Below are positions 31,164 through 33,076 of a DNA stretch of 64,000 nucleotides, piece after piece. The position numbers were made by a program, and so were the translations under genes. The notes below the pieces were generated by a model. The model made no database searches. It had not been told where the DNA came from and saw only the letters and a program-made list of their open reading frames with translations. Source of the DNA: Pseudomonas resinovorans NBRC 106553 (GTDB lineage: Bacteria; Pseudomonadota; Gammaproteobacteria; Pseudomonadales; Pseudomonadaceae); assembly GCF_000412695.1 (NCBI RefSeq), contig NC_021499.1:3720001-3784000 (forward strand). The letters are read 5' to 3'. The first letter of the stretch is position 1. Every line of letters starts with the position of its first letter.

Positions 31164-31477
31164 AGCATGCGCCATCACGGGGCATCTTTCGGTGTGGGGA
31201 CGAGGGAACGATCCCAGGCAAGGAATCATGTAGGGGCGATTGCAATCGCCAAGCGAACCGCAGGTTCGCCCTTCAGCGCAGCAGGGGGCGGCTTCGCCAC
31301 CCTTGGCGAATGAATTCGCCCCCACAAGACTTGGTCGCCAAGGGCAGTGGTGTAGGTTGTGGCTGAGCTATGCGAAGCCCAACACCAGGCGCCTCGGTCG
31401 AGCGGTCGGTTCCCACACCGCCAATCGACTTCTCCCCACAGACCGCCCGCTAGGAACTTTCACACAAGCCATTAGCC

Positions 31478-31507
31478 TTGAGCGCCTACAAATGCCCTCG
31501 CTAGAGT
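31478..31507 (+). promoter_or_regulatory. Sigma-70-like promoter of cassette copy 1
   Basis: TTGAGC (31478-31483), an 18-base spacer and TAGAGT (31502-31507) give a plausible promoter placing the start near 31514, just before the first leader hairpin. The same sequence is present in copy 2. Confidence 0.45.
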
Positions 31508-31513
31508 CCGGCC

Positions 31514-31745
31514 ACTCGCGGTCAATCCCGCGAGGCGGGAGTCGAAACCCGGAACATCTACGAAGGCGCACGCGCGCCATAGCCATCAGCCAGGCGCTTT
31601 TTTGTGCCCGTCCGATGCATCTATGGCGGACCGTGCGGGGCAGGCATTTGTCTGGCCGGTTCCTTCGTACCGGTATTTCGACCCCCGTACGGTCCGCCAC
31701 CCTCCAGCCGAGTCGAAACGGCCCGTGGCGGCTTCCATGGCAACG
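31514..31745 (+). ncRNA. Structured leader RNA with a triplicated self-complementary word, copy 1
   Basis: The order of elements is as follows. Hairpin CTCGCGG/CCGCGAG comes first. Hairpin A (CGGG/CCCG) then shows the loop AGTCGAAA at 31540-31547. After a variable stretch, a 16-bp stem P1 (31625-31640 with 31683-31698) encloses P2 (CAGGC/GTCTG, 31641-31654) and P3 (31655-31660/31669-31674). The single-stranded TTTCGAC (31676-31682) follows P3. Hairpin C (GCCG/CGGC, 31707-31722) shows AGTCGAAA again at 31711-31718. TTTCGAC is the reverse complement of GTCGAAA in both loops. The outer stem of hairpin C (31694-31700 with 31725-31731) uses the same bases as the foot of P1, so the two are mutually exclusive. 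The RNA ends at the ribosome-binding site. No known riboswitch is recognised. Confidence 0.7.
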
Positions 31746-31760
31746 AAGGAGGCAACGGAC

Positions 31761-32087
31761 ATGCACCACCCACCTTTTATCCCCGCGCACCACCCCGCCA
31801 CACTCCGGCCCCTGCCCTATCCCGCCCAGCCCCATGGCGATGTGTTGTTTCTCAACCCCCATGCCTCGGCCGCCAACCTCTTCGACACCGCCCAGCAACG
31901 CATGGCCGCCCTTGGCGACCTGCTGCACTGCCTGGAAAACAGCAGCTCCCACAGCCTGCTCCCCGAGGAAACCGCCCGTGTAGCCGCCGCCCTCGGCCTG
32001 CTGCTGGCCGAAGCCCGCGTCTTGTTCGAGGCGGCCTATGAACGAGCACGGGAAGAAGCGCAGGCCAACGATTGCCACCGTCCGTAA
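31761..32087 (+). CDS. Small unknown protein of the duplicated leader-RNA cassette, copy 1
   Basis: This 108-residue protein has a Pro/His-rich start (MHHPPFIPAHHPATLRPLPY), a LFLNPHASAANLF link and two amphipathic helices (DTAQQRMAALGDLLHCLE; PEETARVAAALGLLLAEAR). It resembles the small helical DUF3077/DUF6124-like proteins that are multi-copy in Pseudomonas, but I cannot assign a function. AAGGAGG lies 8 bases before the ATG. It is nearly identical to copy 2 (32636-32944), differing mainly at the C-terminus. Confidence 0.7.
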   Translation: MHHPPFIPAHHPATLRPLPYPAQPHGDVLFLNPHASAANLFDTAQQRMAALGDLLHCLENSSSHSLLPEETARVAAALGLLLAEARVLFEAAYERAREEAQANDCHRP

Positions 32088-32370
32088 GGACTCACCCCGA
32101 AGGCAGCGCGCAGCAGTCTGGTGTGGGGGCGATTTCAATCGCCAAGCGAACCGCAGGTTCGCCCTTCAGCGCAGCAGGGGGCGGCTTCGCCACCCTTGGC
32201 GCATGAATTCGCCCCCACAAGACTTGGTCGCCAAGGGCAGTGGCGTAGGTTGTGGCTGAGCTATGCGAAGCCCAACACCAGGCGCCTCGGTCGAGAGGTC
32301 GGTTCCCACACCGCCAATCGACTTCTCCCCACAGACCGCCCGCTAGGAACTTTCACACAAGCCATTAGCC

Positions 32371-32400
32371 TTGAGCGCCTACAAATGCCCTCGCTAGAGT
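32371..32400 (+). promoter_or_regulatory. Sigma-70-like promoter of cassette copy 2
   Basis: TTGAGC (32371-32376), an 18-base spacer and TAGAGT (32395-32400), identical to copy 1. Confidence 0.45.
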
Positions 32401-32406
32401 CCGGCC

Positions 32407-32620
32407 ACTCGCGGTCAATCCCGCGAGGCGGGTGTCGCAGCCCGGTCCTTCCAGCAAGGCATGTCCAACCATGGACATGACGCCAGCGGCGTCGCACATG
32501 GTGGACCGTGCGGGGCAGACTTCGGTCTGGCCGGGGCCTTGCTAGCCGGTACTGCGACCCCCGCATTGGTCCGCCACCCTTTCGTGTCGCAGCGATGGGT
32601 GGCGATTCTTCCGCCTAGCA
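32407..32620 (+). ncRNA. Structured leader RNA with a triplicated self-complementary word, copy 2
   Basis: This has the same plan as copy 1 with different sequence. Hairpin A (CGGG/CCCG) has loop TGTCGCAG at 32433-32440. Two copy-specific hairpins follow (CATGTCCA/TGGACATG at 32460-32479 and GACGCC/GGCGTC at 32479-32493). P1 is 32500-32515 with 32559-32575, P2 is CAGAC-TTCG-GTCTG (32516-32529) and P3 is 32530-32534/32546-32550. The free word CTGCGAC lies at 32552-32558. Hairpin C has loop TGTCGCAG at 32585-32592 inside stem CGCCACCC/GGGTGGCG. CTGCGAC is the reverse complement of GTCGCAG in both loops. Compared with copy 1, the three sites have changed together and stems show compensatory changes. 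Hairpin C again competes with the P1 foot. Confidence 0.7.
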
Positions 32621-32635
32621 AGGGAAGCAACGGAC

Positions 32636-32944
32636 ATGCACCACCCACCTTTTATCCCCGCGCACCACCCCGCCACACTCAGGCCCCTGCCCTATCCCGC
32701 CCAGCCCCATGGCGATGTGTTGTTTCTCAACCCCCATGCCTCGGCCGCCAACCTCTTCGACACCGCCCAGCAACGCATGGCCGCCCTTGGCGACCTGCTG
32801 CACTGCCTGGAAAACAGCAGCTCCCACAGCCTGCTCCCCGAGGAAACCGCCCGTGTAGCCGCCGCCCTCGGCCTGCTGCTGGCCGAAGCCCGCGCCTTGT
32901 ACGAGGCGGCCTATGAACGGGCGCGGGAAGACCGACCCTTGTAG
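32636..32944 (+). CDS. Small unknown protein of the duplicated leader-RNA cassette, copy 2
   Basis: This 102-residue protein is identical to copy 1 over about the first 90 residues, then has ALYEAAYERAREDRPL where copy 1 has VLFEAAYERA and a longer tail. The ribosome-binding site AAGGGAAG is weaker than in copy 1. Function is unknown. Its near identity to copy 1 contrasts with the diverged leader. Confidence 0.7.
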   Translation: MHHPPFIPAHHPATLRPLPYPAQPHGDVLFLNPHASAANLFDTAQQRMAALGDLLHCLENSSSHSLLPEETARVAAALGLLLAEARALYEAAYERAREDRPL

Positions 32945-33076
32945 GAGCGAACTCACTCCGAATCGAACGCGGCGCGCAAACCAGTAGCCCGGATGAAATC
33001 CGGGAGAGGCGGTGAGGTCTCCCCGGATCGATCAGGCAGGACTACGTCCTGCATCGCGATTGAAATCGCTCCTACA
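32941..33076. repeat. Composite palindromic repeats after the cassette
   Basis: A GTAGGAGCGAA-type arm (32941-32965), an AGCCCGGATGAAATCCGGG hairpin (32984-33004) and a reversed GAAATCGCTCCTACA arm (33062-33076) fill the gap before the LysE-type gene. Confidence 0.7.

Follow-up and report, generated by a model that had tools for sequence, protein, structure and literature searches.

Chromosomal C4 antisense RNA units with copy-specific words precede two near-identical small genes in Pseudomonas resinovorans

C4 is an RNA switch that was first known from phages and presumably keeps the gene behind it from being started. The phage P1 record describes C4 as an RNA of its own that represses translation of icd/ant; it annotates, in order, a1 and b1 (both 'putative'), C4 RNA, a2, b2 and icd, and a note on ant adds that icd is apparently required for ant expression. 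In the P1 sequence itself, a' (CTGTCAA) separates hairpin 2 from the closing stem, and the loop of hairpin 2 holds b'. PMC2864571 assigns c4 antisense RNA to 'Proteobacteria, phages' and c4-a1b1 to gammaproteobacteria and phages.

Two C4 units in the window

The stretch analysed here (64 kb of Pseudomonas resinovorans NBRC 106553; hereafter, the window) carries two leaders, each followed by a small gene (Table 1). Across the whole window exactly two Rfam matches reached the family cut-off, and both were C4 (RF01695). Both leaders are thus C4 antisense RNA units with the layout a1/b1, C4, a2/b2. A previous reading of the letters alone (the sequence-only reading) knew of no named RNA with this plan; that statement no longer holds, as RF01695 exceeds its cut-off in both copies and the layout annotated in P1 is identical.

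The same reading had described a central 7-nt segment complementary to two flanking words, with different words in the two copies, and all six stretches proved to be as it described them. Read directly at their coordinates, positions 31540-31547 and 31711-31718 of copy 1 are each AGTCGAAA, and the final 7 nt of both are exactly complementary to TTTCGAC at 31676-31682; in copy 2, positions 32433-32440 and 32585-32592 are each TGTCGCAG, and CTGCGAC at 32552-32558 is the exact reverse complement of both outer words over 7 nt. The outer stretches are therefore identical over 8 nt, as claimed for an 8-nt word, but the complementarity extends over 7 nt, not 8. This word set is the a-site set (a1, a', a2) of P1.

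Both copies hold a second co-varying triple, overlooked previously, which is the b1, b', b2 set of P1 and in which the apical loop of C4 (b') matches an upstream word and the ribosome-binding region. In copy 1, 31662-31669 pairs with 31559-31566 and 31661-31668 with 31743-31750; in copy 2, 32536-32543 pairs with 32453-32460 and 32537-32545 with 32615-32623. In both cases b2 lies at the ribosome-binding region of the downstream ORF, which starts at 31761 or 32636.

Table 1 Features of the two leaders and their downstream genes (positions in the window)
Feature	Positions	Strand	Basis
Copy 1 possible promoter, weak (TTGAGC, 18 nt, TAGAGT)	31478..31507	+	Loose pattern; stricter scan negative
Copy 1 c4-a1b1-like target stretch	31501..31555	+	RF03163, 28.4 bits, below cut-off of 46.7
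Copy 1 a1 site GTCGAAA, in hairpin loop	31541..31547	+	Exact complement of a'
Copy 1 b1 site TACGAAGG	31559..31566	+	Exact complement of b'
Copy 1 C4 antisense RNA	31619..31704	+	RF01695, 76.2 bits, cut-off 45
Copy 1 b' word, apical loop of C4 hairpin 2	31661..31669	+	Complements b1 and b2
Copy 1 a' word TTTCGAC (the 'free segment' of the sequence-only reading)	31676..31682	+	Complements a1 and a2
Copy 1 a2 site GTCGAAA	31712..31718	+	Coordinate read
Copy 1 b2 site ACGAAGGA, overlaps ribosome-binding region	31743..31750	+	Complement of b'
Copy 1 downstream gene, 108 aa, no named family	31761..32087	+	ORF; no Pfam/NCBIfam match over cut-off
Copy 2 possible promoter, weak (TTGAGC, 18 nt, TAGAGT)	32371..32400	+	Loose pattern; stricter scan negative
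Copy 2 c4-a1b1-like target stretch	32394..32448	+	RF03163, 32.9 bits, below cut-off of 46.7
Copy 2 a1 site GTCGCAG	32434..32440	+	Coordinate read
Copy 2 b1 site AGCAAGGC	32453..32460	+	Coordinate read
Copy 2 C4 antisense RNA	32494..32581	+	RF01695, 66.0 bits, cut-off 45
Copy 2 b' word	32536..32545	+	Complements b1 and b2
Copy 2 a' word CTGCGAC	32552..32558	+	Complements a1 and a2
Copy 2 a2 site GTCGCAG	32586..32592	+	Coordinate read
Copy 2 b2 site CTAGCAAGG, at ribosome-binding region	32615..32623	+	Coordinate read
Copy 2 downstream gene, 102 aa, 97% identical to copy 1	32636..32944	+	ORF

The likeness to P1 thus comprises the RNA family, the order of sites (a1, b1, C4, a2, b2, gene) and the positions of a' and b' within the RNA. 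All four target sites were found in both window copies, unlike in some relatives, and the P1 a-word CTGTCAA itself recurs in several Bro-N units of the same genome. The window units differ from P1 in that they are chromosomal, with many copies per genome, that their words differ between the two copies, and that the gene behind them is not icd/ant. They also differ in that b2 directly precedes the gene of interest. At four other loci (L168, L169, L170 and L172), the ribosome-binding site serves an ORF of 25-28 codons that overlaps the start of the main gene, somewhat like icd ahead of ant; in the window copies, b2 is followed directly by the start of the gene itself.

Proposed mode of action

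We consider it highly probable that the leaders are stand-alone chromosomal C4 units, in which base pairing of a' and b' with the mRNA sites a2 and b2 lets C4 shut off translation of that mRNA, and in which a1/b1 form a competing target, probably a decoy. Each unit would consist of a promoter, a1 and b1, an 86-88-nt C4 RNA carrying a' and b', a2 and b2, and the small gene; by analogy with P1, C4 would be made as a separate processed RNA, its pairing with the mRNA would block translation, and the upstream sites would offer it a second target. The need for each unit to remain self-consistent would account for the joint change of its words. Membership in the C4 family, covariation of the sites and association with certain gene families are established, and the location of b2 on the ribosome-binding region, read from the coordinates of both copies, fits translational repression. 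Upstream of a1, the promoter candidates of Table 1 were recovered by a loose pattern; a stricter scan of 31200-33000 found no consensus promoter, and this, like the sub-threshold c4-a1b1 matches, weighs against the model.

For comparison we assembled all C4 matches of four genomes, 103 loci with none dropped: 18 from P. resinovorans itself (G000), 48 from its relative G277 (47 of them over cut-off), 16 from G153 and 21 from G017. A run of at least five T lies 10-100 bases before C4 at 29 of the 103 loci, compared with about 5 expected from shuffles, and may mark a short a1/b1 transcript.

The principal alternative is a purely cis-acting, attenuator-like switch, in which a1/b1 and a2/b2 would compete for a'/b' within one transcript with no action in trans. 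Several observations are in keeping with it: the predicted minimum-energy fold of either leader pairs a1 with a', some units keep a1 without a2 (see below), and the 3' arm of C4 matches downstream sequence above shuffles in G000, G277 and G017, though hardly in G153 (25% vs 8%). The last of these, which hints at a third contact of the 3' arm with downstream sequence, is also common across loci. The P1 annotation of C4 as an RNA in its own right, repressing icd/ant at the level of translation, argues against a solely intramolecular switch, as does a scan of 31200-33000 in which no terminator-like site was found, and we regard this alternative as unlikely. The pseudoknot or kissing contact within a single leader that had been proposed from the letters covers only part of the picture; the central element in P1 is an antisense RNA that acts on mRNA.

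Much less probable again is a ligand-binding riboswitch or a wholly unnamed RNA, the suggestion of the sequence-only reading. A long structured leader ahead of a small gene would suit such an element, but C4 alone reaches the Rfam cut-off in the window, where no known riboswitch family does so, and the plan is that of P1; we dropped this candidate because the RF01695 match and the P1 layout together exclude it as a separate class. Two further named RNAs touch the upstream sites. The a1/b1 stretches of the window align below threshold with c4-a1b1 (RF03163, 'a1, b1 targets of C4 antisense RNA'), unlike several QslA, DUF3077 and DUF6124 leaders, in which this family exceeds its cut-off. The isrK RNA (RF01394) is over cut-off across the a1/b1 region in 7 of 20 DUF3077 loci and differs in the window, where its match scores 24.6 bits against a cut-off of 50.

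Covariation and predicted cross-talk

Exact a-triples of at least 6 nt were found at 10/18 loci of G000, 46/48 of G277, 11/16 of G153 and 13/21 of G017. When C4 cores were permuted among loci of the same genome (2000 trials), the corresponding means were 2.3, 4.0, 2.2 and 2.5 and the maxima 6, 11, 7 and 9. Triples of at least 7 nt numbered 6/18, 42/48, 8/16 and 8/21 in the same order and comprised 5, 20, 5 and 5 distinct a-words, and a' matched a1 over at least 7 nt at 18/18, 44/48, 16/16 and 19/21 loci. Outside these genomes, a 7-nt a-triple was present at all 17 QslA-type loci with C4, which use seven words and several of which are close relatives. For the second triple, b' matched its own b2 region more strongly on average than those of other loci in all four genomes.

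These data support, in the window as well as in its homologues, the covariation and loop-to-strand pairing that had been proposed. Chance complementarity in GC-rich sequence, for which one might point to a' matches of at least 7 nt with another locus's upstream region in 10-15% of cross-locus pairs, is refuted by triple counts above every one of the 2000 shuffles in all four genomes and by the 17/17 QslA-type loci, and its probability is practically nil.

Where all three sites exist in homologues, they do not vary independently, but a subclass of loci lacks the downstream a-site. No a-triple of even 5 nt was found at 20 of the 103 loci (7/18 in G000, 8/21 in G017, 5/16 in G153 and 0/48 in G277). 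Among eight Pseudomonas relatives of the window protein, three (L168, L169 and L172) have a full a-triple, two of their a-words being absent from the window, and the other five have a1 and no a2. Downstream pairing is therefore not the whole story in units that keep a1 without a2. Seven loci of P. resinovorans (L004, L006, L011, L013, L016, L017 and L018) combine good a1/b1 pairing with weak or absent a2/b2 pairing, and possibly constitute a subclass with another mode of action.

The two window copies had also been taken to be orthogonal to each other. Predicted duplex energies do not support so clean a separation: for the copy 1 leader, the C4 of copy 2 (-8.8 and -15.7 kcal/mol) is predicted to be no weaker a partner than the C4 of copy 1 itself (-8.2 and -13.1 kcal/mol). 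In the opposite direction, binding of copy 1 C4 to the copy 2 leader is predicted to be weak (-7.3 and -7.3 kcal/mol), compared with -12.4 and -16.8 kcal/mol for that leader and its own C4, so that orthogonality would be one-way at best. More broadly, the own target was the best predicted one for only 9/18 C4 RNAs in G000, 36/48 in G277, 8/16 in G153 and 9/21 in G017, which likewise weighs against the model.

Downstream genes and specificity cassettes

The window protein had no match over cut-off in Pfam or NCBIfam, its best matches among the sequences of solved structures had E-values of 0.08 and weaker, and no homologues were found in phages or plasmids at the limits used; one DUF6124-type protein had one phage-record match. 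Membership in DUF6124 or DUF3077 was tried and rejected, with hhalign probabilities of 1.3 and 0.6, respectively. The protein is modelled as a helical hairpin (mean pLDDT 79.8), for which a search of the PDB gave no match at E 0.001 or less; our guess is a small binding or regulatory protein.

Judging from downstream ORFs chosen by a simple rule, several of them doubtful (that of L150, where DUF6124 matches, is in the wrong frame), 13 of the 18 units of P. resinovorans precede a Bro-N match (E 0.01 or less), and the 48 units of G277 precede DUF6124 (34), DUF3077 (3), Bro-N (3), PaaA2 (1) and QslA (1). The reverse test, which starts from the gene and looks for C4 upstream on the same strand, gave C4 within 700 bases for 38 of 40 DUF6124 matches in G277, these 40 counting a gene split in two pieces and a match that stays under the cut-off. 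Upstream C4 was likewise found for 8/9 Bro-N matches in G000, 13/15 in G017 and 11/17 in G153; for 15 of 20 DUF3077 loci scanned, of 21; and for 11 of 20 DUF6124 loci scanned, of 35 matches, in G045 and G067, where 4 more of the 20 had c4-a1b1 only. It preceded the window-family gene at 8/8 Pseudomonas loci; a ninth locus, a 31-residue match in a Ruminococcaceae bin, had no C4. Among QslA matches, C4 was upstream in 17 of 20 loci scanned, of 40 listed, and one of the three misses, L188, begins so close to a contig end that it is uninformative. C4 is a likely regulator of DUF6124, DUF3077, window-family and QslA-type genes.

The QslA-type genes (L176-L195) fall in the Pfam family of the LasR-specific antiactivator, and the 17 that bear C4 all have a perfect a-triple; C4 may here provide a possible antisense input into quorum sensing. 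Two loci matching DUF3077 and DUF6124 (L208/L236 and L212/L222) lie beside PrrF RNA and have no C4 at cut-off. Near the window-family gene of Pseudomonas citronellolis, a fluoride riboswitch (RF01734) lies on the other strand (L174:616-677).

RF01695 occurs in all 18 genomes of the genus, with 3 to 25 copies each, and with at least one copy in 199 of 298 genomes of the family, a survey in which at most 14 candidates were scored per genome, so that its copy counts are lower bounds. At the level of the phylum, 42 of 299 genomes had it (40 over cut-off), and the same surveys found none in 14 control genomes. The 48 matches of G277 are scattered over both strands of one 6.6-Mb contig.

The two window copies diverge between two near-identical blocks, one at about 31240-31539 and the other starting at about 31752 and covering most of the gene. 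Identity is 98% over the first 290 nt of the ORF and 67% over the cassette. The pair very probably represents one gene that was duplicated and now carries two specificity cassettes (about 31540-31751 and 32433-32625). Similarly, for 31 pairs of loci from one genome whose ORFs are 85% or more identical, mean identity was 92% for the ORF, 82% for the C4 stems, 84% for a' and 48% for the b' loop region, one of these pairs (L096/L097) having identical C4. Among the DUF6124-type units of G277 (528 pairs), identity of the b' loop had a rank correlation of 0.00 with the 3' half of the gene, the values for the promoter region and the 5' half being 0.40 and 0.58; loop identity averaged 0.52, vs 0.44 for shuffled loops. 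Genes that are almost the same can carry b-words that bear no relation to each other. In the Bro-N sets, which are small, the correlation was -0.11 in G000 (21 pairs) and +0.34 in G017 (36 pairs, p 0.04), the latter therefore not in line with a decoupled loop.

Individual loci differ in which part is shared. The genes of copy 1 and L169 are 60% alike, yet the two units have the same a-word, agree over most of the b-word and share 78% of the cassette; between L169 and L172, 95% of the gene and 72% of the cassette are shared; and L003 and L041 have C4 cores 97% alike, followed by sequence 56% alike. Such comparisons show that cassette and gene histories can differ. We read this as exchange of cassettes between genes, and fast divergence of the words could explain part of the mismatch.

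On balance we lean, by a modest degree, towards the view that pseudomonads possess a genome-wide 'one lock per gene' system that uses a phage-type antisense RNA as its building block. The chromosomal C4 units, dozens in number (48 matches in one genome), would control DUF6124, DUF3077, Bro-N and QslA-type genes, including homologues of the quorum-sensing antiactivator QslA, and cassettes that diverge and move independently of the controlled genes would place duplicated genes under separate control. Unlike the phage case, a phage-type immunity RNA would here form a multi-copy chromosomal control family, with words that change together at several sites. With many chromosomal units, non-phage targets and words decoupled from genes, this looks like a new deployment of a known RNA class, and C4 units would offer natural parallel antisense pairs in which to follow the parting of RNA specificities once a gene has been duplicated and the level of cross-talk that a cell tolerates. 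As a minor observation, a partly self-complementary element of about 100 bases opens each copy of the duplication (31229-31331 and 32122-32224) and recurs near L168.
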